In this document: positions 38,524 to 53,494 of the stretch, one piece after another | Numbering within the stretch: position 1 is the first letter of the stretch | Layout: each line of letters begins with the position of its first letter | Assembly: GCA_004347685.1 (NCBI GenBank) | Contig: SLTJ01000037.1 | Location: forward strand, 71,417 to 135,416 | From: Clostridia bacterium | GTDB lineage: Bacteria; Bacillota; DSM-521; Neomoorellales; SLTJ01 | Length of the DNA: 64,000 bases | Direction: 5' to 3' | Translations under genes and position numbers: made by a program | Notes under the pieces: model-generated | Told to the model about the DNA's origin: nothing | Seen by the model: the letters and a program-made list of their open reading frames with translations, nothing else | Databases searched by the model: none

Positions 38524-39093
38524 ATGAAGGCCACAGGTATAGTCAGGCGGATAGACGATTTGGGGCGGGTAGTAATACCCAAGGAAATCCGCAGGACGCT
38601 GCGCATCCGCGAGGGAGACCCCCTTGAGATTTTTGTTGATCACGACGGCGAGGTTATCTTGAAGAAGTACTCCCCCATCGGCGAGTTGGGACATTTTGCC
38701 CAGGAATATGCCAATTCCCTCCATGAAGCGTTGGGGCACATTGCCTGTATCGCCGACCGCGACAACATCATTGCCGTGGCCGGTGCAACCAAAACCAAAG
38801 AGTTTCTCAACCAACCGATAGGCCCCGTCGTCGAGAAAGTCACCGACGACAGAAGGCCGGCCTTGATCAATGCTACCGGTGAACACCTGTTGGGAAAGGA
38901 ATGCCCCGTGTATGTGGAGGAAGGAGAAAACTGTGACCTGACGGCCACGGTGATTGCCCCTATTGTGGCGGCCGGCGACCCCATTGGCGCAGTGGTGATG
39001 TGTTCTAAGGAACCAGGGGCAAAGATGGGCAACATGGAACTGAAGCTGGCTGAGACCGCTGCCAGCTTTCTGGCCAAACAACTTGAGCAGTAA
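38524..39093 (+). CDS. spoVT: stage V sporulation transcription factor SpoVT
   Basis: 189 residues, slightly longer than the usual 178. The N-terminal 50 residues are an AbrB-type swapped-hairpin DNA-binding domain (KATGIVRRIDDLGRVVIPKEIRRTLRIREGD); the C-terminal part is a GAF-like domain (GHIACIADRDNIIAVAGATK, PIVAAGDPIGAVVM). SpoVT modulates sigma-G-dependent forespore genes. It shows the organism is an endospore former. It is a single-gene unit on the plus strand, ending in a probable terminator. Confidence 0.95.
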   Translation: MKATGIVRRIDDLGRVVIPKEIRRTLRIREGDPLEIFVDHDGEVILKKYSPIGELGHFAQEYANSLHEALGHIACIADRDNIIAVAGATKTKEFLNQPIGPVVEKVTDDRRPALINATGEHLLGKECPVYVEEGENCDLTATVIAPIVAAGDPIGAVVMCSKEPGAKMGNMELKLAETAASFLAKQLEQ

Positions 39094-42848: not shown

Positions 42849-43060
42849 TCATAGCCCGCCCCTAAGGGCGTTCAGGGCCATGGCGGCGATGGCCGTGGCC
42901 AGGAGCACGCGCAAGGTAGCGGCCGGCAGGCGCTGGTTAAGGCGCGCCCCAAGCCTGGCCCCGGCTATCGCCCCGGCGCATACCCCGGCTGCCAGCAAAG
43001 GGGCAATCTGTCCGGCCCCCAGCTAGCCAGCAAAGGTGGTCACGGCGATAAAAAAACTGG
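42849..43060 (-). pseudogene. TauE/SafE-type permease, C-terminal remnant
   Basis: About 70 codons read PSFFIAVTTFAG, a TAG stop (43023-43025), then LGAGQIAPLLAAGVCAGAIA, GARLGARLNQRLPAATLR and a last helix ending ALRGGL. The G-x-L-GA-LG-RL-QRLP---LR pattern is the C-terminus of the TauE/SafE (DUF81) sulfite/anion permease family. The 5' part is cut off exactly at the left end of the 135-bp element copy 3, and an in-frame stop lies inside. Nonfunctional. Confidence 0.75.
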
Positions 43061-43195
43061 GTAACTACTCAGGCCAGCGCCTCTCACTTCGGCTGTCAGC
43101 GGCCTCGCCGTCACTTTCGCGAAGCCTGATAACCCGGCTTGCGTCTTCACTCGTTCGCCGCCAGACTCCGGCCAGCTTGACAGGCTGAGCAGTTA
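43061..43195. repeat. 135-bp TAACTACTCAG element, copy 3
   Basis: Starts GTAACTACTCAGGCC and ends GACAGGCTGAGCAGTTA, with the shared interior CACTTTCGCGAAGCC...CCGGCTTGCGTCTTC. It borders the TauE remnant on one side and the next gene's stop on the other. Confidence 0.77.
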
Positions 43196-43198
43196 GGC

Positions 43199-43465
43199 CT
43201 AATCTTTTTCCCGCCGCAGCTCAAAGACCACGGTTTCGGTGGGGTCGGGGCAACACCACTGCGTAGGCTCGCCGTTGGGAGCCCAGGAGAAATTGCCCCC
43301 GTTCAAAAGCACTGATACCGGAGCCGCCAGAGCCCCGGCCGCCCAGCGGCATAGACCGGCCGGCACGTGCTCGGTGAAAATGAGTTTATCTCCCGGTTTA
43401 TGCCCGGCCGAGCACTCCCCTGTCCCCCTTACTTCAACCACTTCGGCCACTACCTTTGTCGCCAT
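43199..43465 (-). CDS. TIGR04076-family small protein
   Basis: 88 residues from ATG of MATKVVAEVVEVRG, with GGGAGGTCAGG upstream; the longer frame adds 16 residues. Conserved points GECSAGHKPGDKL, PAGLCRWA, GGNFSWAPNG and WCCPDPTETVVFELRR match the TIGR04076 family, which has several conserved Cys residues and no known function. It sits between a 135-bp element and a heptamer repeat. Confidence 0.75.
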   Translation of the reverse strand: MATKVVAEVVEVRGTGECSAGHKPGDKLIFTEHVPAGLCRWAAGALAAPVSVLLNGGNFSWAPNGEPTQWCCPDPTETVVFELRREKD

Positions 43466-43530
43466 TGTCCTGACCTCCCTGAAAACCTTTGGATAGAACA
43501 ATAATTTCGCCACCCCTACCCATACTCCTG

Positions 43531-43605
43531 TTCAAATTTGAGGTTCGAGGGTTCGGAGTTCGAACTCGCAGAAAGTGGCTGTGCCACTTTCAAATTCAAG
43601 CCCGG
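43531..43605 (+). repeat. heptamer-plus-hairpin repeat, copy f
   Basis: GAGGTTC, GAGGGTTCG and GAGTTCG units, ACTCGCAG, then a perfect stem GAAAGTGGC...GCCACTTTC. Its GGTTCGA flavour is shared only with copy g at 51797; the two lie in the same orientation on either side of the corrinoid operon. Confidence 0.72.
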
Positions 43606-43634
43606 GGCCACCGGGATCAAGCCGGGGGCGCGCG

Positions 43635-43661
43635 AAAAAGCCGGGCCCCTTTAGGGCCCGG
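43635..43661 (-). terminator. intrinsic terminator
   Basis: CCGGGCCC, 5-base loop, GGGCCCGG, then CTTTTT on the minus strand. It would end transcription coming from the permease remnant and possibly from the whole corrinoid operon. Confidence 0.75.
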
Positions 43662-43669
43662 TCCTGGCC

Positions 43670-43768
43670 CACGGCCAGGATGACGGCCAGGAACACCAGT
43701 TCCAGGTGATCCAGGGTAAGCTTTACAATCTGCGGCCAGCGACTGGCCATAAAACCAAGCAAGTCCAT
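43670..43768 (-). pseudogene. OpuC-type glycine betaine/choline ABC permease, N-terminal remnant
   Basis: 33 codons: MDLLGFMASRWPQIVKLT, then LDHLELVFLAVILAV, with GGAAGG before the ATG. This is the usual start of osmoprotectant (quaternary amine) ABC permeases (L-SRWP-I--LT-EHL-LV). The frame then runs straight into the terminator and repeat f, so about 170 residues are missing. It suggests that an uptake system for a betaine once accompanied the neighbouring MttB genes. Identity by family memory. Confidence 0.6.
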
Positions 43769-43820
43769 ACCTTCCACCCACGTTCCCATAGAGTGTCAAT
43801 AACCTTCAACCTAGCAGCAG

Positions 43821-43843
43821 GGCTAACCACCCAGGGGTTAGCC
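43821..43843. other. inverted repeat
   Basis: GGCTAACC, 7-base loop, GGTTAGCC. It lies 45 bp past the glutamate-ligase stop; no T tract follows on either strand, so its role is unclear. Confidence 0.4.
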
Positions 43844-43886
43844 AACGACCTCAGAAGCGGAAAGCTCCAAGACCCAGACCCTGCTG

Positions 43887-45222
43887 TCATACCCAGGCGA
43901 ATTCATTTAAAACACCCTCCAGGCCATGCCGTAGAAATAGTTGCCGGGCCTCATCGGCCGGGCACTGCTCTTTTTCCAGCCGCACCCACAGCGATTCCAG
44001 AAATCTTTCTTCCCCCAGTTGCCGTTGGCGCAAACCCTCGGCCGCTATTTGCAATACCTCGGCACAGAGCTTGACAATGGGCCGTCCGGCCACGCAGGCC
44101 GCCAGACCCCTGCGGATGGCCTCCTCCCGCGCCACGACCAGCTCCTCCCAGGAATACTGCCGGACCACTTCCTCAGCCTGGCCGAGATTCTCCATCAACC
44201 CTAGGGTCAGGGCCGCTACCACCAGCAACCTCGGGCGGCTGCTGGCAGTTGACCCGGTTTTCCAGGGTACCGTAGCCCGATACCCGGGCGTCGTGCCAGC
44301 AAAAGGTCTGGTGCAGTTCCCAATCCTCTATCCGGGGCATAACCGGCACCATATTTCCCCGGCTGTCGGCGGCTGCCGCCTGTGCCCCGTCCTGCCAGTA
44401 AACGGCAAAGCTCCCGTAGTGGGCCAGGCCCAGGTACTGCCCGTCCCGGACCAGGTAAACCGGCCGGAAGCCTGCCAAGTGTTCCACGTAATCCCCCAGG
44501 TCACTGAAGGGACGGGAGATCTGGCCTACCCGCGGGTCTCCCGGCAACCACCATTCCCAGGCCTGCTCGGTCAGTGCCTTGTATCCTTCAGCCAGTCTCC
44601 CCTGCCAGATGGCGGAGTTGGCATGGAGGGCGATCTGGGCCGCAGCCAGGGCGTTAAAAACATTCACCGCCCTTATTGCTTCCTCGGGGGCCACATCCAC
44701 ATGCACCTGGTTGGTGGCCGTGACCGTGAACAGGTACACCCGGTCGTTGCCGAAAACTTCCTCCCAGAAGAGATTCCGGGCCTTGGGCATCATCAATTCC
44801 CGGCCCGGGGGAGTCAGGGGCTGGACCCCCAGGCCCAGGAAAGAAACCCCTTCGGCCGCGGCAAACTCGCCCAGCAGTTCCCGGATCTCTGCCAGGCGCC
44901 GATACAGGCGGTGCAGGTCATCCTGGTAGGCCAGGGAGATCTCCAGCTTGCAAAAACCGGTCTCGGTGCCAATGACATCCCGGCAGTACTTGTTCGGAAA
45001 AGAGGCGCTGACCGGCCAGCCATAATGGGGGTCAAGGCTGAGGTCCCACCCCCGGGTGGCCAGGAAGGCCCACAGTTTCTGCAGGGTCTCGAACCCTATG
45101 GCCTCTCCTCGCTGGTTTACTGCCGGGAACTTGAGCTCCAGCCCCGTCCCCCGCGGCCGGCCCCGGCGCCCGGCTTGCTTGCCTGCCAGCATCTCCCAGA
45201 CAAAACCGGCCAGCTCATCCAT
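43887..45222 (-). pseudogene. glutamate-cysteine ligase-like protein (GCS2 family), frameshifted
   Basis: The first frame (45222 down) reads through a GCS2-type ATP-grasp-like ligase core: GTGLELKFPAVNQ, GTETGFCKLEISLAY, FLGLGVQPLTPPG, TATNQVHVDVAPEEAIRAV and ANSAIWQG. It changes frame at 44230-44260: after ENRVNCQQPP the family sequence goes on as RLLVVAALTLGLMENL in the next frame, down to 43887. Removing one C from CCGCCC would restore a single protein of about 444 residues. Such enzymes join glutamate through its gamma-carboxyl to an amine or thiol. It is the last gene of the operon, 6 bp after proA. A sequencing error is possible. Confidence 0.75.
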
Positions 45223-45228
45223 CGTCCC

Positions 45229-46491
45229 TCACCTCGTACCCATGATATGTCCCCGGCCGACCACCACATACTTGTAGGTGGTGAGGTCCCGCAGGCCTAC
45301 GGGGCCACGGGCATGCAGCCGGTCGGTGGAGATCCCCATCTCCGCGCCCAGCCCCAGTTCCCCGCCGTCATTGAACATGGTGGAGGCGTTGACCAGCACC
45401 ACCGCGGAGTCCACCTGCCGCTGGAACTCCTGCGCCGCCTCAAGGCTTCCCGTAACAATGGCGTCGGTATGGTGGGAACCATAGGTATTGATGTGCTCGA
45501 TGGCTGCGGCCAGGGAGTCCACCACGCGCACTGCCAGGACCAGGTCCAGGTACTCGGTTCGCCAGTCTTCCTCCGTAGCCGGCACCAGGTCTGGAAAAAC
45601 TTCTCGCGCCTGGGAGCAGCCGCGCACTTCCACTCCCCGCTCCCGTAAGGCCTGCACCACCGGAGGCAAGAGCCGGCCGGCAGCCGCCGTGTGCACCAGG
45701 AGGGTCTCCAGGGCGTTGCAAACCTCCGGCATATATACCTTGGAGTCCACCGTCAGCTTTACCGCCAGCTCCACACCAGCCGTTTCGTCCAGGTACATGT
45801 GGCAGATGCCTTCGTAGTGTTTTAAAATCGGCACGCGAGCCTGCTCTTCCACCAGCCGGATTAGGCTCTTCCCGCCCCTGGGAATAGCCAGGTCAATCTG
45901 ACCGCGCAGGGAGAGGAGGATAGCCGCCGCCTCCCGGTCGGTGGTGGCGATTACCTGGATGGCCGTGGCCGGAAGGCCGGCTTCCGCCAGGGCCTCCTGC
46001 CACAGGGTACCGATTACCTGGTTGGTCCTACTGGCCTCGGCCCCGCCCTTAAGAAGGACGACATTGCCAGACTTCAGTGCCAGAGCCCCGGCATTGATGG
46101 TCACGTGGGGCCTGGCCTCGTAAATAACCGCCAGTACTCCCAGAGGAACCCGCCGGCGGTAAACTTCCAGTCCGCCGGGCCAGACCTCGCCCCAGTCCAG
46201 TGAACCTACCGGATCGGGGAGGGCGGCAATGGCTTCCAGGGCGCGGCAGCGGGCAGCTATCTTGTCGCCGGCAAAGGCCAGCCGCCGCAAAAGAGGCTGG
46301 GGCAACCCGGCCTGGGCGGCCGCCGCCAGGTCCTCCCGGTTGGCAACCTCGATTTTAGCCGCTTCTTCGCGCACCAGGCGGGCCAAGCTCTGCAAGACCA
46401 GGTTCTTCTGCGCCGTGCTGGCGCAGGATACTACCCGCGCCGCCTCCCGCGCCAGGCGCACCTGCTCCTGGATGAACTGCTGTACTTCCAT
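45229..46491 (-). CDS. proA: gamma-glutamyl phosphate reductase
   Basis: 420 residues from ATG of MEVQQFIQEQVRLAREAA. It reduces gamma-glutamyl phosphate to glutamate-5-semialdehyde for proline synthesis. PLGVLAVIYEARPHVT, LKGGAEASRTN, the nucleophile Cys in VCNALETLLVH and NASTMFNDGGELGLGAEMGIST are as expected. There is no proB (glutamate 5-kinase) in the window; instead a glutamate ligase of the GCS2 family follows. That, and the corrinoid genes upstream, makes the context unusual for proA. It is the only operon member with no visible lesion besides the activation-domain gene. Confidence 0.93.
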   Translation of the reverse strand: MEVQQFIQEQVRLAREAARVVSCASTAQKNLVLQSLARLVREEAAKIEVANREDLAAAAQAGLPQPLLRRLAFAGDKIAARCRALEAIAALPDPVGSLDWGEVWPGGLEVYRRRVPLGVLAVIYEARPHVTINAGALALKSGNVVLLKGGAEASRTNQVIGTLWQEALAEAGLPATAIQVIATTDREAAAILLSLRGQIDLAIPRGGKSLIRLVEEQARVPILKHYEGICHMYLDETAGVELAVKLTVDSKVYMPEVCNALETLLVHTAAAGRLLPPVVQALRERGVEVRGCSQAREVFPDLVPATEEDWRTEYLDLVLAVRVVDSLAAAIEHINTYGSHHTDAIVTGSLEAAQEFQRQVDSAVVLVNASTMFNDGGELGLGAEMGISTDRLHARGPVGLRDLTTYKYVVVGRGHIMGTR

Positions 46492-46506
46492 CCCCATCAC
46501 CTGCCG

Positions 46507-47178
46507 CTACCCGGCACACAGCCGGTCGTCCCGGTAGGCACACCTATCCCGCCGGCTGCAGGCCGGGCAGCGCCCGGGATTGATTTCCGCCATGGGCAGC
46601 GGTCCCATTTTCACGGCAAAGGAAACCGACTTGCGGGGGAGCATCATATAGCCGCTGGTCAAGCGTACTCCGGCCGGCTCCCCGGGAAAGTGGCGGAAGA
46701 TGAGTTGCTGGTCCTCTACCGGCCAGTTGCTGTAACCCGGGCTGAAGCGGCGGGTGGTGTACCATCCCTGGTCCCGGGCCAGCCGGTCAATCTCCTCGTT
46801 TACTGTGTCAGCCACGGCCTCGGCCGCCACCGAGCCAATAGCGTCCACCACCAGGGCCGCCGCGGCATCGCCCCGGCGAAAGAGCTCTGATACCTTTTCT
46901 TCCACCGTTTCCCCGGCCGTGCATACCGTCAGGGCCACTTCCCGGGCATCGGTAAAATTTTCCCTGGAGGCAAAGGGATCAGCCGCCACCACCCGGTAAG
47001 CAGCGCGCGGCGCCAGCCACTCCCGGGCCATGTCCAGTTGCTCTTCCACCATCCTCCGGGTACGGGAGGAAACCTGCCGGCCGTGCTTGTAGCCAAGGTA
47101 CCGGTACACCTCCCGCCGGGACAGCACCAACTGCTGCGGGTCAAACTCCAACTCCTTCAACCCACGCAAAGAAATCAC
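46507..47178 (-). CDS. stand-alone MetH-type B12 reactivation-domain protein
   Basis: 223 residues from GTG overlapping the corrinoid gene stop by 4 bases. FSPGYSNWPVEDQQLIFRHF and LTSGYMMLPRKSVSFAVKMG correspond to the SAM-binding activation domain of methionine synthase (MetH), which reductively methylates inactive cob(II)alamin. The N-terminal half (residues 1-90) is a helical segment. The C-terminus carries CPACSRRDRCAYRDDRLC, four Cys that could bind a metal or Fe-S cluster. Its place next to the corrinoid protein suggests it reactivates that protein with SAM. No ATP-dependent RamA/RACo-type activator is seen. Confidence 0.82.
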   Translation of the reverse strand: MISLRGLKELEFDPQQLVLSRREVYRYLGYKHGRQVSSRTRRMVEEQLDMAREWLAPRAAYRVVAADPFASRENFTDAREVALTVCTAGETVEEKVSELFRRGDAAAALVVDAIGSVAAEAVADTVNEEIDRLARDQGWYTTRRFSPGYSNWPVEDQQLIFRHFPGEPAGVRLTSGYMMLPRKSVSFAVKMGPLPMAEINPGRCPACSRRDRCAYRDDRLCAG

Positions 47179-47822
47179 CTCCCCACGGCTTCCCGGGCCA
47201 GGCGCACGGCTTCCAGGGCATCGTCGGCGTAGATGTCGGCGCCAATGCGGGCCGCAAATTCCGGAGTCACCGGGGCCCCGCCGACCATCACCCGCAGCCC
47301 GCCGTTCCTCAGGCCGGCTGCCTCGAGGGCGGCTATGGTCTGGGCCATGGCCGGCATGGTGGTATTGAGCAGGGCGGACATGCCGACAAACTGGGGCTTG
47401 TGTTCCCGGCAGGCCCGCACGAAATCCTCGGGCCTGACGCTCACCCCCAGGTCAATCACCTGAAACCCGTTGGCGGTCAGCATCATGGCCACCAGGTTCT
47501 TGCCGATGTCGTGAATGTCACCCTGCACGGTACCCAGGGCAACCTTGCCCCGCAGCCCCGCGCTTGCGGACTGACCGGCTTCCAGGTGGGGCCGCAAGAG
47601 TTCCAGGCCGGCCTGCATGGCCCCGGCCGACATCATTACCTCGGGCAGGAACATTTCCTGCTTCCCGAATCTCTCCCCTACCACGCCTAGGCCTTTAAGC
47701 AGGCCGTCCTGCAGGATGGTGTCTGCCGCCAGGCCCTCACCCAGGGCCTGCTCTGCCAGTTGCCCGGCCGTCGCCGCTTCCCCGTCAATAACGGCCCGGG
47801 CAAGCCGATCTAAATCTGCCCC
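47175..47822 (-). CDS. corrinoid (cobalamin-binding) methyl-carrier protein; expected start codon reads GGG
   Basis: 215 residues if begun at 47822, the standard length for MtaC/MtbC/MttC-type proteins. The helical cap (ADLDRLARAVIDGEAATAG, LPEVMMSAGAMQAGLELL) and the B12 domain with the axial His in GTVQGDIHDIGKNLVAMML, plus GMSALLNTTM and GGAPVTPEFA, are intact. GGAGG lies 7 bases before the expected start, but that codon is GGG, and no ATG, GTG or TTG occurs in frame between the upstream stop and the domain. The longer open frame to 47990 runs back through the upstream gene and is not credible. Either a start mutation or a base error. Confidence 0.8.
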   Translation of the reverse strand, partial: GADLDRLARAVIDGEAATAGQLAEQALGEGLAADTILQDGLLKGLGVVGERFGKQEMFLPEVMMSAGAMQAGLELLRPHLEAGQSASAGLRGKVALGTVQGDIHDIGKNLVAMMLTANGFQVIDLGVSVRPEDFVRACREHKPQFVGMSALLNTTMPAMAQTIAALEAAGLRNGGLRVMVGGAPVTPEFAARIGADIYADDALEAVRLAREAVGR

Positions 47823-47847
47823 CTTAACACCTCCAAAAAATCCTTTG

Positions 47848-48723
47848 CTATCCCAGCTCGCCCCGGCGGTAGGCCCGCAGGTAACCGGCACACATCGGGT
47901 CCTGCCCGGCCAGGGCCAGGCTGGCCACCAGCTCGCCGCGCAATTCCCGGTCCAGGGGATTGAGGATAACGGAATCCAGGCCCACCCCAACGGTCATGGC
48001 CAGGAAAGTGCGGTTCAGGACCTTCCTGGCCGGTAAGCCGTAGGAGATGTTACTCAGCCCCAGCGTGGTCTGCCACCCCTGCTGGCGGATGCCAGCCAGG
48101 GTCAGGAGGGTAGCCCGGCCGCTGGCCGGGGTAACGCTCAGGGGCAGCACCAGGGGATCAAAGTAGAGCCGGCCGGCCTCAATGCCGGCCTTCTGCGCCG
48201 CGGCAAAAAGCTCCCGGCAGTTGGCCAGCCGTTCCTCCGGCTCCTGGGGTACCCCGCCGTCAGAAACCGGCAGAACGATGGCCAGGGCTTCGTACCGGGC
48301 CGCCAGTCCCAGGAAGGGTTCTAACCGGTTGCTCTCCAGGCTGAAGGAATTCACCATGGCCCCGGGGCCGGCTGCTTCCAGGCCGCGTTCCAGCACCGTG
48401 GGGTCCGTGGTGTCAATGGCCAAGGTCTTATCCGTAACTTCCCGGATGATTTGCACGGCCCACTCCATGTCTGCGGCCTCCCGCTCCACATCGCCCAGGC
48501 CGGCAGCCACGTTCACGTCCAGGTAGTCAGCGCCGGCCCGGGCCTGGTTTGCGGCCAGCACCTGGATAACCTGCCGGTTATGGTTGAGAACAGCCTCCCG
48601 CACCGAGCGGCTGGTAGCGTTTATCAGCTCGCCGATGATTAAAATGCCTATCCCCCCCCCCCCCCGTTGATTTTCCGTGCGCCGGGTCCTGTCCGTCCCG
48701 GTACTGACGCCACGCGCCTTCAC
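47848..48723 (-). CDS. methyltetrahydrofolate:corrinoid methyltransferase (pterin-binding, AcsE/MtgA type)
   Basis: 291 residues from GTG at 48723. The family normally starts at the equivalent of LIIGELINATSRSV, so the first 26 residues, which include a run encoded by 14 G, look foreign. An ATT at 48645 would give (M)LIIGELIN and 265 residues, the usual size, with the G tract as ribosome-binding site. The DHPS-like barrel has YLDVNVAAG, LAIDTTDPTVLERGLEAAG, NSFSLE and GLSNISYGLPARKVLNRTF. It moves methyl groups between the corrinoid protein and tetrahydrofolate. It overlaps no neighbour; the corrinoid gene follows at 25 bp. Confidence 0.85.
   Translation of the reverse strand: MKARGVSTGTDRTRRTENQRGGGGIGILIIGELINATSRSVREAVLNHNRQVIQVLAANQARAGADYLDVNVAAGLGDVEREAADMEWAVQIIREVTDKTLAIDTTDPTVLERGLEAAGPGAMVNSFSLESNRLEPFLGLAARYEALAIVLPVSDGGVPQEPEERLANCRELFAAAQKAGIEAGRLYFDPLVLPLSVTPASGRATLLTLAGIRQQGWQTTLGLSNISYGLPARKVLNRTFLAMTVGVGLDSVILNPLDRELRGELVASLALAGQDPMCAGYLRAYRRGELG
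48652..48665. repeat. 14-base C/G homopolymer
   Basis: Fourteen consecutive C on the plus strand (G on the coding strand), by far the longest homopolymer in the window. It lies inside or just before the start of the methyltransferase gene, so slippage would change the reading frame or the ribosome-binding-site spacing. Confidence 0.9.
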
Positions 48724-48747
48724 GAAGTCCCGCCTTGAAAGAAGGCC

Positions 48748-49674
48748 CTACAGCAGCAAATGGCCCAGGCGGCCACGGATGCTGGCTTCGATCCGGGCCT
48801 CCAGGGGCCGGGGCCGGTGCTCCGCCAGGATTTCCCTGGCCTTCTCCCGCGCCCTGGCGGCAGCGTCCCTGGCCCCGTCCTGCTCCCACACCCGGCGCAG
48901 GGTTTCGGCATTGCTGGTCGCCACCGTGCCGGCCAGGGTTACCGGGCTGGTGGCCCCGGCCAGGGGTTCGGCCGGGCAAACTACCGGGATCCCCTGGCGG
49001 GCCACCTCCACCTCCAGGGCCGAATAGGTTTCGTCTAGAACCAAAGGACTCATGACACAGGTAATCATGGAGATAAACGGCCGTTCCCGCAGGGCCTCGC
49101 GGCCGCCGGCAATCTCTTCGGCCATGGCCACTACGTCCCGGATGCCCTGGATGGTGTACACGCCGCCCATGACGTGCTTGGAGGTATTGGTCAGGGCCGA
49201 AAAGAACCGGTTCACGTCTACCCTCTCGGCCGGCACCCCGTCTGGGTAGGCCGGGATGTTGTAAAACTGGATGTTTTCCATGGCATCCACCAGCCGGGCG
49301 ATTTGCCGCAGGTCGTCCATGGTGGCCGGGCGGCGCTGCCCGCTGTCCAGGTCCAGGACGTTGAGCACCGTGCCGCCGGTGCCCAGGTGGGTGCGCCTCC
49401 CCGCAAGCCACAGGTCGTATTTCTCTTCCCGGCCGCACAGGACGACGGAGGAGGGCGCGGTGTCAACGGCGTCCTCCAGCATGGACCTGGGAATGCGGAC
49501 TATGGTCCTCTCCCGGTCCACCGGCGCCCCTTTCCCGGCAAAGATCTCTAGAACGTCGGCATTGGGGACCTTGACCCCCACTTCCTCCAGCAGCCGCACG
49601 CTCACCTCGTGGATGGGCCGGATATCTTCCGGTTTTAACGGCTGGTACTGTCCTCCCTCGTAACTCTCCAGCAA
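48748..49674 (-). CDS. MttB-family methyltransferase with large internal deletion
   Basis: 308 residues against about 480-500 for the family. Residues 1 to about 260 match the N-terminal half (IHEVSVRLLEEVGVKVPN, GTGGTVLNVLDL, NRFFSALTNTSKHVMGGVYT, ISMITCVMSPLVLDE). After TVATSNAETL the sequence jumps to RRVWEQDGARDAAARAREKAREILAEHRP, which is the normal C-terminus. The missing 150-170 residues contain the back of the TIM barrel and the position that is pyrrolysine in true trimethylamine MttB. The frame is open, but catalysis is unlikely. MttB relatives demethylate quaternary amines such as glycine betaine. Confidence 0.8.
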   Translation of the reverse strand: MLESYEGGQYQPLKPEDIRPIHEVSVRLLEEVGVKVPNADVLEIFAGKGAPVDRERTIVRIPRSMLEDAVDTAPSSVVLCGREEKYDLWLAGRRTHLGTGGTVLNVLDLDSGQRRPATMDDLRQIARLVDAMENIQFYNIPAYPDGVPAERVDVNRFFSALTNTSKHVMGGVYTIQGIRDVVAMAEEIAGGREALRERPFISMITCVMSPLVLDETYSALEVEVARQGIPVVCPAEPLAGATSPVTLAGTVATSNAETLRRVWEQDGARDAAARAREKAREILAEHRPRPLEARIEASIRGRLGHLLL

Positions 49675-49697
49675 GGAAACTTCTCCTCCCTAGCAAC

Positions 49698-50935
49698 CTA
49701 CTTTTCCACCCGCAGGATGGCCACCAGGCCGTGGCCCAGGCCTTCACCCACCTGCCCCTCAATCTCCAGGCCGCGCAAAGCCAGCGCCAGTTGCCGCTCA
49801 AAACACCAGGCCCTGGCGTCGGGGACCAGTCTCCCGGCAGCCTCGGCCGCAGTCACCAACCCCTCGGCCAAGGAGGCCGGGACACCTGCCAGCCGCTCCA
49901 TCCCGTTGGGGTCTACCCCGGCTTCCAGGGCACCCAGCAGGGCCGCGGCAAAATCCACCAGGCTGTTCCAGTTACCGGCCATCCCGGCCAGGACCCGGTT
50001 CTGGTCCGGGAAGCCCTCCCGGGGATGGTATTCCAGTTTCAGGGTCGCGAGATCAGTCCGTACCCACGGTTCCAACAGCAGTTTGCCGCCCGCCGCAGGG
50101 GAACGGCGTAAGGGTTGTACTGCCGGGTCTCCATGTGGCGGCCGATAAACACCGAACGGTCAAAGAAGCTAAGTACACGTAGCCGGGCGTGGCTCCTTTT
50201 CTCGGCCTGCTCTATCACCCGGGTTACCTCCGGTCGGCTCATCAGCCGGAGCGGGAAGGAGGTATACTGCTGGTTTTCCCGCTCGGCCTCAGGATCCAGG
50301 TAGGACATGACGTAGTCCATGGTTGGCACCTTTTCCACCTCGTGGGTCCAGAGGCTCTGCCACTCGTAGGAATAGCGCCCGAGCCAGTCGGCCACGACAA
50401 TCGCCCCCGGCGACGCCTGGGCGGCGACGTTTACCAGCAACTGTTCCAGCTCGGCATCATTGCAGTGGGAAAGGGTACCGTAGGAGGTAAAATAGAGGTC
50501 AAACCCGCTGCCGCCGGGACCGGAGGGCAATACCTCGCAGAAGTTGGCCCGGGCAAATTCCACCTTCCCGGGTATGCCGTATGTAGCCCGGCCTTCAGCC
50601 AGGAGTTCCTCGTTCAGGTCAATGCCCAGGTAGCAGTCCAGAGTTCCCGGTCTCAAGAGGGCCGGGCGGCAGTCTTCCCACGATACCCGGCTGGCCGGCA
50701 GCCTGGCGAGCAGTTCGTAACCGTCCCCGCTGCCGCAACCCAGGTCGAGGATCCTAAGGCCCCTCCCACGGCGCTTCCTGTCGGCCACCACCTCCTCCAG
50801 GACGGGAGTGATAAAATAAGCGGTGACCCGGTCCTCCCAGTACACCCGCACGTTATCGTCTTTCCCCAGAAGGCCGGTAGGCCTGGCGTAACGACCGCTG
50901 GCCACGGCCTCCTGATAGGCTGCACCTGCTTCCAC
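49698..50935 (-). pseudogene. class I SAM-dependent methyltransferase, frameshifted
   Basis: From GTG at 50935 (AAGGAGGTGGGAG upstream) the first frame gives VYWEDRVTAYFITPVLEE, the SAM motif LRILDLGCGSGDGYELLA, YLGIDLNEELLAEG, FDLYFTSYGTLSHC and ends at 50039 shortly after YNPYAVPLRRA. The next frame resumes with LLLEPWVRTDLATLKLEY and a C-terminal domain of about 110 residues down to 49698. The shift falls in the G-rich CGGCGGGCGGC at about 50085-50095. Joined, it would be about 412 residues. The methyl acceptor is unknown. First gene of the corrinoid operon, possibly co-acting with the glutamate ligase and ProA. Confidence 0.72.
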
Positions 50936-51357
50936 AACTCCCACCTCCTTACGACTCGACAGGTTTAAAGTTCCATGCCGCTGAAAACACCTCAGGAAAG
51001 TGTTGATAAAGTCTTTGCTGGCCGCCGGGCTCCGGCCCCATGGCAAACCGCGCAAACGCCCTAGCCCGCGGCCAGCTCGGCCGCAAACTTCTCCGCCAGG
51101 GCCACGGCGGCAAAGGCGTCGCTGCCATGGGCATCCAAATCCACCTGACCGTATCTCCTTTCCACGCTCCTAATGCGCCAAACTCGCTACTTCCGCCTGC
51201 CCTCACCCACGCTGGAGACACCAGTTGCCAAAGCCCGGTTAAATAAGTTAGCACCCTAAAGACGTGCCCGGGAAGCCATTTTGATCCCCCAAAATGGCCG
51301 AAACATCCCCGACCCCGACCGGCCTGTAACCACGGCTGCTTCCCGGCAGGCCCGGGG
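50936..51357. other. spacer with a short residual coding fragment
   Basis: About 420 bp. A minus-strand frame at 51061-51186 encodes about 41 residues (VERRYGQVDLDAHGSDAFAA, then VALAEKFAAELAAG) without a start codon and preceded by TAG; its composition looks like the C-terminal tail of a lost gene, which I cannot identify. Other open frames here look like shadows. No promoter was recognised. Confidence 0.4.
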
Positions 51358-51675
51358 CTACTTCTTTTCCCACACCTCTATTGGCTCACCTATTTTGCTG
51401 ATGTAGCCCTCGTAGAGAATATACTCGGGGTGCTGGTCCAAGGTAGTAAAGTCCCCCACCTCTATGCCGGCGGCCCCGGTCCTGGCTGGGTCAAAGATGC
51501 GGATCTCCAGGCACGGTTTGCCGTTATATTCGGCCTCCCGCTCCACGTATCTCAGGTGTTGCAGCACATCAACAATAACCCCCTTGCTGACCATATACCC
51601 CCATAGAGGGCCTTCGATCTTCTTGACCGCCTTCTTCTTGTCACCGCCGCCTTTCCTGCCCCATAACAAAGCCAA
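51358..51675 (-). CDS. hypothetical protein
   Basis: 105 residues from TTG. A basic N-terminus (GRKGGGDKKKAVKKIEG) is followed by a compact domain: GYMVSKGVIVDVLQHLRYVE, CLEIRIFDPARTGAAGIEVG, YILYEGYISKIGEPIEVWEKK. I do not recognise it. It reads like a real small protein of mixed alpha/beta composition. It lies between the intact MttB gene and the corrinoid operon. Confidence 0.6.
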   Translation of the reverse strand: MALLWGRKGGGDKKKAVKKIEGPLWGYMVSKGVIVDVLQHLRYVEREAEYNGKPCLEIRIFDPARTGAAGIEVGDFTTLDQHPEYILYEGYISKIGEPIEVWEKK

Positions 51676-51796
51676 CCTCTGTCACACCTCCCTTAGTGGA
51701 CGAGCTTGTTAGGCCGGGAGGTCCCGGCCCTAAACCCCCGCCGACCCTCCGGCAGATGCCGGTACTTTGGCAACTCGTATCCCAGCGTGGGAAACA

Positions 51797-51850
51797 GATC
51801 AAATTCGAGGTTCGAACTCGTAGAAAGTGGCTGCGCCACTTTCTACAATG
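51797..51850 (+). repeat. heptamer-plus-hairpin repeat, copy g
   Basis: GAGGTTC and GAACTCG units, then a perfect stem GTAGAAAGTGGC...GCCACTTTCTAC (12 bp). Closest relative is copy f at 43531. Confidence 0.72.
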
Positions 51851-51913
51851 AAATCTGGGACCTCTCACGTCGCCGTCTTTTTCACCCCTCTGCCGGTGGC
51901 GCCTGAGGTGGCG

Positions 51914-53494
51914 TCAGCTTCTAACCTCCGGCCCTGTGGCCGGCAAGACAGACTCTTTCCCGTAGGGATTGAGCCGGGGTAAAATACCCGGTACCCGGGC
52001 AAAAATTTCATGACATACTTCCCGGGACAGGCAGCGGGGCGACCGCGCGAGATAGGCGTCTAGTTGCTCGTGGGCCCGCAAGAGGGCCTCATCGGCCAGC
52101 CCCTGGCTGGCAAAGGGGTATGTAGGGAAAACTTTTCCTTTGTGTACAAGTTGGCGGGTGTAACGCGCGTAAAGGCGGTGGGAACTGGCCATGACCCGGC
52201 GCACGGTATCCAGCACCTGCGCCCCCGCCTCCTCCGTTACCTCTGGCTGCCGCCACAACTCCTTGACAATGCCGATCTGCCAGTTATCCAGAATGGCCTG
52301 CTCGGGGCAGAAGGTCTGAGTTTCTTCCAGCAGGCCGAAGGCATAATGGATAAGGGCCGGCCCGCTGGGGGTAACGTAACCATAGGTGAGCATTTTCTCC
52401 ACCGTGGCCTGGATACCGGGTATCCTGGCATCCCCCACCCCGGCGGTGGAGTAACACGGCAGGCCGTAAAACCTGGCCATCTGCACGCAGTCTACATTGT
52501 AGTGGCCGAACTCCGGCACCCCGTACATGTCGTGCAGGTTATCCATGCGCGCCCGCACCGGCACGCTGCCGTAAAGCACCGGGGCTCCCGGCCGGGCCAA
52601 CTGGCTCAGGACAATACCGGCCAGGATCTCGGCATTGATCTGGGCCACCATACCCGCTTCCTCTATGGGCGCAGTGGAACCACCCTGGGGGGAACTGGAG
52701 ATGACTACCGGGATACCGCGCCGCACCATTTCCAGCATTTTCTGGGTGGTGTCGTCCACCAACTGCAGCGGGCTTTTTACTACACAGGTAATAAATGAAA
52801 TAATCGGGTTTTTCCGCAGTTCCTCCGGCCCTCCGGCAATGATCTCCGCCATTTTGATTACATTGCCCAGTTGTCCCAGGGAGGTCAGGCCGGCCATAAC
52901 GTGTTTAGTGGTATAATTAAGACACGCAAAGAACTTGTTCACGTCCTTGTTGTCCCCGCCGATGTCGTCGTCCTGGATGTTGACCGGCCGCAGGAAAAAG
53001 TCCAGGTTGTCCAGTTGCTCGGCCAAGTGGGCCGCCCGGGCCAGGTCAGCTACCGTTCCCCGCCGGCGCGCGATAGTCGGATAGGTTATCTCCCGGCCGG
53101 GGTCGCCCTTAGCTACAAATACTTCCGGCTCGATCTCCAGCCAGACATTTGTCTCCGAACCGCTGCCAAAGTAAACCCTGGGCTGGCCGGCATCCAGCTC
53201 CAGGATGTTGTCCGCGTCCCTGGCCCCAAGGCGCACGCGGCGAGGAGCCGATTCCAGGGCCCGGTTCACCAGCTTCTCGGAGATATGTACCCGCCAGGCC
53301 GGAAAGGCAAAACCTTCCGCGATGGGCTCAACCTTCGCCCCGGCAGTACCCAGCAGGTCTACAGCCTCCTGGTTGAAAACCATTAACCCCGGCTCTTCCA
53401 GGATCTCAAGGGAAAGACGGTGAATAAGCTCCACCTGCTGCTGGTTCAGCCGCCTGAGAACCGGATCCACCAGGATTCCTCTCGCTTGCGGCAA
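51914..53494 (-). CDS. MttB-family (non-pyrrolysine) methyltransferase
   Basis: 526 residues from TTG with AGGAGGAGGG upstream; full length for the family. IHRLSLEILEEPGLMVFN, YFGSGSETNVWLEIEP, NKFFACLNYTTKHVMAGLTS, FITCVVKSPLQLVDD, VISSSPQGGSTAPIEEAG and PSGPALIHYAFGLLEE trace the MttB barrel. The frame has no in-frame TAG, so there is no pyrrolysine; such homologues (MtgB, MtpB, MtcB) demethylate glycine betaine, proline betaine or carnitine. Which substrate applies cannot be read. The C-terminal 90 residues (YARYTRQLVHKG to the end) differ from the neighbour's C-terminus. A single gene with its own ribosome-binding site. Confidence 0.87.
   Translation of the reverse strand: MPQARGILVDPVLRRLNQQQVELIHRLSLEILEEPGLMVFNQEAVDLLGTAGAKVEPIAEGFAFPAWRVHISEKLVNRALESAPRRVRLGARDADNILELDAGQPRVYFGSGSETNVWLEIEPEVFVAKGDPGREITYPTIARRRGTVADLARAAHLAEQLDNLDFFLRPVNIQDDDIGGDNKDVNKFFACLNYTTKHVMAGLTSLGQLGNVIKMAEIIAGGPEELRKNPIISFITCVVKSPLQLVDDTTQKMLEMVRRGIPVVISSSPQGGSTAPIEEAGMVAQINAEILAGIVLSQLARPGAPVLYGSVPVRARMDNLHDMYGVPEFGHYNVDCVQMARFYGLPCYSTAGVGDARIPGIQATVEKMLTYGYVTPSGPALIHYAFGLLEETQTFCPEQAILDNWQIGIVKELWRQPEVTEEAGAQVLDTVRRVMASSHRLYARYTRQLVHKGKVFPTYPFASQGLADEALLRAHEQLDAYLARSPRCLSREVCHEIFARVPGILPRLNPYGKESVLPATGPEVRS

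Follow-up and report, generated by a model that had tools for sequence, protein, structure and literature searches.

Members of the MttB superfamily demethylate quaternary amines. The systems described include MtgB for glycine betaine, MtpB for proline betaine, MtyB for gamma-butyrobetaine, and MtcB for carnitine (PMC8604678, PMC12155760). Here, we analyze a related operon from a Clostridia bacterium, in a stretch of 64,000 nucleotides of contig SLTJ01000037.1 (positions 71,417 to 135,416 of the forward strand; we call this whole stretch the window and number positions from its first letter). Like the known systems, the operon comprises MttB, corrinoid protein, a methyl-tetrahydrofolate (methyl-THF) methyltransferase that resembles MtrH, and a MetH-type reactivation domain, and its second MttB (MttB2) is of the non-pyrrolysine (non-Pyl) type. 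In contrast to them, it has two divergent MttB proteins, two corrinoid proteins (CP1 and CP2), a dedicated S-adenosylmethionine (SAM) methyltransferase, and a proA paralog with a GCS2-family gene (proA-GCS2), and it has been inactivated here. We conclude that it is probably what is left of a corrinoid methyl-transfer operon that was acquired horizontally and has recently been inactivated.

Several proteins of the operon fall short of curated models for specific functions. MttB2 of the reference genome, G002, is near the cutoff for trimethylamine methyltransferase but below it (TIGR02369, 510 bits against 525) and has methionine at the pyrrolysine position; the window copy is shortened. CP2 scores 197 bits against a cutoff of 370 (NF047996) and 186 against 310 (NF047995) for the glycine-betaine protein MtgC. 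The GCS2-family protein matches its family (PF04107, 57.8 bits against 21) and resembles the plant-type glutamate-cysteine ligase/GCS2 structures 2gwc, 6gmo, and 9ufc over about 300 residues (E = 5.5e-8). In contrast to plant-type glutamate-cysteine ligase, it scores weakly with every curated ligase model; the best equivalog is EgtA, at 37 bits against 370.8, a score that is lowered by the frameshift in the window copy. Also, in the homologous loci that we examined, it always follows ProA and is intact.

Bacillus subtilis has a dedicated proA paralog in its osmostress proline pathway, ProJ-ProA-ProH. This is similar in that a second, dedicated ProA lies by an enzyme that may activate glutamate, in what is likely an osmolyte setting, but in our operon a GCS2-family protein replaces glutamate kinase, methyltransferases are attached, and ProH was not seen.

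Lesions in the operon

An earlier note, made from the sequence alone, described a corrinoid methyl-transfer operon with defects in nearly every gene and suggested looking for intact orthologs in sister genomes. The relatives that we searched included no second genome of the same genus, and our reference is G002, from another genus of the same family. It does carry the operon (contig C13, locus L019), largely intact: the frames are open from mttB1 through the reactivation gene, with 86-90% nucleotide identity to the window pieces compared. In G002, proA-GCS2 is not present with the operon, which is accompanied by an AsnB-like gene and an OpuC-type binding protein. A genome-wide search of the window's genome found neither of these G002-type genes, and the only MttB-type genes that it found are the two in this operon. 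The features of the locus, which spans 53.5 to 42.85 kb and is read on the minus strand, are listed in transcription order:

51914..53494, minus: MttB1, non-Pyl MttB-superfamily methyltransferase, intact, 526 amino acids (aa); 88% nucleotide identity to the intact G002 gene; TIGR02369 262 bits (cutoff 525); PDB relatives 7xcl and 2qne
51227..51913, no strand: about 0.7 kb unmatched in the G002 operon; holds a 105-aa open reading frame (ORF, 51358-51675) and one copy of a dispersed repeat
51061..51144, minus: CP1 corrinoid protein gene, 27-codon remnant after a 609-bp in-frame deletion, by comparison with G002
49698..50935, minus: SAM-dependent methyltransferase gene, frameshifted by a 1-bp deletion near 50079; frame intact in G002; 40-member family; Methyltransf_25
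48748..49674, minus: MttB2 pseudogene, 513 bp (171 codons) gone in frame at about 48900; the G002 ortholog is a 487-codon open frame
47848..48723, minus: MtrH-like methyl-THF:corrinoid methyltransferase, open frame, 14-G run close to the expected start; PF00809, NF005719
47175..47822, minus: CP2 corrinoid protein, whole reading frame, start GGG instead of GTG, by comparison with G002 and profile matches
46507..47178, minus: MetH-type corrinoid reactivation-domain protein, intact; PF02965; 86% nucleotide identity to G002
45229..46500, minus: ProA paralog (glutamate-5-semialdehyde dehydrogenase), intact; NF001221 539 bits
43887..45222, minus: GCS2-family ligase/kinase-like gene, frameshifted at about 44233; PF04107; intact 450-483 aa homologs adjoin ProA; two abutting tblastn segments
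43532..43789, minus: ORF with an OpuC-type-permease-like start, probable stub; 24-aa match, 46% identity, to the Opu permease of locus L039
42849..43022, minus: TauE/SafE exporter stub, C-terminal end only; PF01925, E = 2.7e-7

All of the defects in the earlier note are present in the sequence, apart from small corrections. The frameshift that it placed at about 50.09 kb, in the SAM methyltransferase, is the 1-bp deletion, at a site that is not in a long homopolymer. MttB2, which it took to be short by 150-170 internal codons, has lost 171, with the junction near 48898-48901 at a 4-nucleotide microhomology (CCTG). About one third of the length is missing, including the position equivalent to pyrrolysine. 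G002 MttB2 has a whole MTTB domain (PF06253, positions 30-489 of 500, 412 bits), but window MttB2 covers only 30-277. The reported GGG start of CP2 (47820-47822) is GTG at the same place in G002. As G002 has no proA-GCS2, the GCS2 frameshift (about 44.25 kb in the earlier note) was checked against homologs elsewhere: intact proteins from seven loci, and a separate tblastn search, locate it at about 44233. The CP1 remnant, the membership of mttB1 in the operon, and the 0.7 kb between them that G002 lacks had not been noticed.

The 14-G run had also been counted as a lesion. It is present (48652-48665) and is the only homopolymer of at least 8 G/C (or at least 9 A/T) in the 64 kb, but it does not break the MtrH-like frame, which stays open from a GTG at 48723 that is conserved in G002. 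At the expected start position (ATG in L034), neither the window nor G002 has a standard start codon, and the true start is uncertain in both. The run is absent from G002 and is a possible slippage site. We considered phase variation through it, but given the open frame from the conserved GTG and the absence of the run from G002, it is at most a curiosity. We rejected programmed frameshifting for both the SAM methyltransferase and GCS2 because the homologs have single open frames, and pyrrolysine readthrough does not explain the short MttB because the 171 codons are physically gone.

Besides proA and the reactivation-domain gene, which the earlier note gave as the only whole genes, MttB1 and the MtrH-like frame are whole. 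Ten genes that we sampled elsewhere in the window, on both sides of the operon, show no truncation, so the clustering of lesions is real in that sample, in keeping with the claim of few defects elsewhere. (This is a sample rather than a full count; those genes with a close curated profile match cover nearly its whole length.) The operon has the marks of a cluster of pseudogenes, with several lesions that inactivate genes whose orthologs are intact and a lesion rate above that of the sampled surrounding genes.

To the left of the operon, the TauE stub in the earlier note is real: it has 57 codons, and its match is confined to positions 188-236 of 237 in the TauE profile (30.9 bits, just below the cutoff of 32.6). 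The OpuC-permease stub is only probable, as its match (E = 0.004 against a tiny sequence set) is suggestive only. The 105-aa ORF in the 0.7-kb segment has no match in Pfam or NCBIfam. This genome has four copies of an intergenic repeat (40-70 bp) that contains an inverted-repeat core: two in the window (43559-43579 and 51811-51831), one on each side of the decayed segment, and the others on contigs C7 and C21; a search at one mismatch did not find it in G001 or G002. We do not claim an element bounded by the copies at 43.56 and 51.81 kb because the repeat is also on two other contigs and the alignment is only 40-70 bp. The plasmid collection that we searched gave no match, which says little about plasmid origin.

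Timing and origin

Changes between the window and G002 are concentrated at third codon positions in all of the pieces, with ratios of nonsynonymous to synonymous substitution rates (dN/dS) of 0.14-0.36. Selection is no more relaxed in the broken pieces (0.15-0.26) than in the intact ones. At sites that are invariant in outgroups, there are five window-only changes and three G002-only changes, so there is no excess in the window. Because dN/dS is low in broken and intact pieces alike and there is no window-only excess, the lesions are recent, with most of the divergence having accrued under selection.

Divergence from G002 at fourfold sites is 0.16-0.28 for the operon and 0.45-0.54 for six vertical genes (leuA, leuC, ilvB, ilvN, the other proA, and the gene at 38524-39093). 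The other proA is elsewhere in this genome (G000:C17); its product is 48% identical to the cluster ProA and closer to the G001 and G002 copies. Longer matches to G002 elsewhere in the genome are 64-75% identical. The operon's synonymous divergence is thus about half that of vertical genes compared between the same two genomes, a marked shortfall of the kind expected of a horizontally transferred operon. It was therefore shared by horizontal transfer once the genera had separated, whether directly between them or from a third source. In the tree of SAM methyltransferases, the window and G002 pair together, and their smallest well-supported larger group includes the other Bacillota. On this sequence evidence, the operon moved horizontally before it decayed and is not an old native pathway. 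The earlier note's suggestion that decay would record the recent loss of a betaine-type methylotrophic pathway holds as to recent loss, but methylotrophy is only one possible function.

Decay and its alternatives

The earlier note left open whether the operon is decaying or the assembly is locally poor. If assembly or base-calling were at fault, the operon would be intact in the living strain. The genome is a draft in 54 contigs, both frameshifts are single-base events, and a run of 14 Gs is hard to sequence. However, the lesions are of varied kinds (two large deletions, two frameshifts, and one start-codon change), and poor assembly alone is an uneasy explanation because of the two clean in-frame deletions (513 and 609 bp) and the start substitution. 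Also, the frameshift in the SAM methyltransferase is outside of any long homopolymer, the ten sampled genes of the same window are full length, and the AsnB-like and transporter genes that partner the operon in G002 are absent genome-wide. We therefore consider decay to be much likelier than bad assembly, and it is improbable that the lesions are artifacts.

Several observations do weigh against a recently inactivated remnant. Any one of the small indels could by itself be an error in sequencing; G002, without proA-GCS2, is not an exact ancestor; and the only fold matches of the SAM methyltransferase are to generic class I methyltransferases and cover part of its length. Residual function or selection on downstream translation might be the reason that MttB1, the MtrH-like frame, the reactivation gene, and proA are intact and that neither large deletion shifts the frame. 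The operon might then be trimmed rather than dead, with these four proteins retaining a reduced role and the in-frame deletions tolerated because they keep downstream translation coupled. In favor of this reading, those of the four frames that have a G002 counterpart are at dN/dS of 0.14-0.36. But no normally startable corrinoid protein is left in the operon, as CP1 is deleted and CP2 has lost its start, so MttB1 has no obvious local partner. Also, GCS2 and the SAM methyltransferase are broken, and two deletions would both be in frame by chance 1 time in 9. We give a trimmed but working operon little credence and favor a recently inactivated one.

Related gene clusters and possible function

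A scan of named genomes identified 59 loci with the SAM methyltransferase. MttB is present in 40 of these, an AsnB-like gene in 21, an OpuC-type binding protein in 20, and ProA-GCS2 in 8. AsnB and ProA-GCS2 never co-occur (0 of 59 loci), which is suggestive only, given partial contigs and shared ancestry. Three loci from soda-lake Syntrophomonadaceae (L034-L036) share the gene order of the window (mttB1-CP-SAM methyltransferase-mttB2-mtrH-CP-proA-GCS2) except that they have no reactivation gene. In the methyltransferase tree, ProA-GCS2 is found repeatedly, on branches of Armatimonadota, Planctomycetota, and Bacillota. In cyanobacteria, the SAM methyltransferase occurs without MttB, beside AsnB and OpuC genes. 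For example, in Leptolyngbya sp. PCC 7375 (L071), it lies between OpuC-like transporter genes and AsnB on one side and glutaminase on the other. The ancestral operon is part of a wider cluster, apparently undescribed, in which a dedicated SAM methyltransferase lies by MttB proteins and by either proA-GCS2 or an AsnB-like gene, and in which OpuC transporter genes are frequent. In the open-access literature that we searched, we found no description of this cluster or of glutamine or glutamate betaine synthesis. A genome study of the soda-lake syntroph 'Ca. Syntrophonatronum acetioxidans' did not find a complete glycine-betaine route (PMC6295475).

Some of these loci have further features. The glutaminase-domain protein of Leptolyngbya (L071:11286-13238) directly follows the SAM methyltransferase. 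In a soda-lake locus, an aldehyde:ferredoxin oxidoreductase follows proA-GCS2 (L034:17279-19198), which hints at an aldehyde intermediate. We examined AsnB-like proteins (L019:1051-2574, L039:3725-5209, L041:11281-12819, and L071:8421-9911) for the N-terminal glutaminase cysteine. In most of the loci with MttB, its place is taken by Ser, Ala, or Gly (L064 keeps the cysteine), but the cyanobacterial loci retain it.

The recurrence across the 59 loci of the SAM methyltransferase, a proA-GCS2 or AsnB-like partner, and frequently an OpuC transporter suggests that the intact system was for the synthesis and recycling of a compatible-solute betaine rather than purely for methyl catabolism, with a substrate and direction that we infer. 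The ancestral order would have been mttB1 - corrinoid protein 1 - SAM methyltransferase - mttB2 - mtrH-like - corrinoid protein 2 - reactivation domain - proA - GCS2. The SAM methyltransferase would N-methylate an amino-acid-derived amine to give a betaine-type compatible solute, with a glutamate-family backbone that proA-GCS2 would provide or alter. Methyl groups would pass between the betaine and tetrahydrofolate by way of the two MttB proteins, the corrinoid proteins, and the MtrH-like protein, while the reactivation-domain protein would restore oxidized corrinoid. Both halves are disabled here, by the two frameshifts and by the loss of CP1, the start of CP2, and part of MttB2. A fold search for the substrate of the SAM methyltransferase gave only generic class I methyltransferases (query-normalized TM scores of at most 0.34).

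Purely catabolic betaine methylotrophy is compatible with decay and would make a substrate like those of MtgB or MtpB the source of methyl-THF, with the SAM methyltransferase and proA-GCS2 incidental. The MttB, corrinoid, MtrH-like, and reactivation genes do match known anaerobic demethylation systems. However, this seems rather unlikely given that the SAM methyltransferase is found with MttB in most of the loci and with ProA-GCS2 in loci from several clades, and that cyanobacteria have it without MttB. As a tentative alternative, we propose an undescribed betaine cycle for compatible solutes. The SAM methyltransferase would make a glutamate-family betaine, GCS2-ProA or an AsnB-like synthetase would modify its carboxyl, and MttB would recycle the methyls to tetrahydrofolate or, in reverse, methylate from methyl-THF. 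This could be a salt-adaptation module common to soda-lake clostridia, sulfate reducers, planctomycetes, Methanophagales, and halotolerant cyanobacteria.

In the window, a corrinoid methyl-transfer operon was thus probably gained by transfer and then recently lost, and G002 provides a reference that is largely intact and 86-90% identical in DNA sequence. As the combination of the SAM methyltransferase, MttB, and proA-GCS2 or an AsnB-like gene recurs in many halophilic or haloalkaliphilic lineages, it is a testable candidate for an unrecognized osmolyte pathway.

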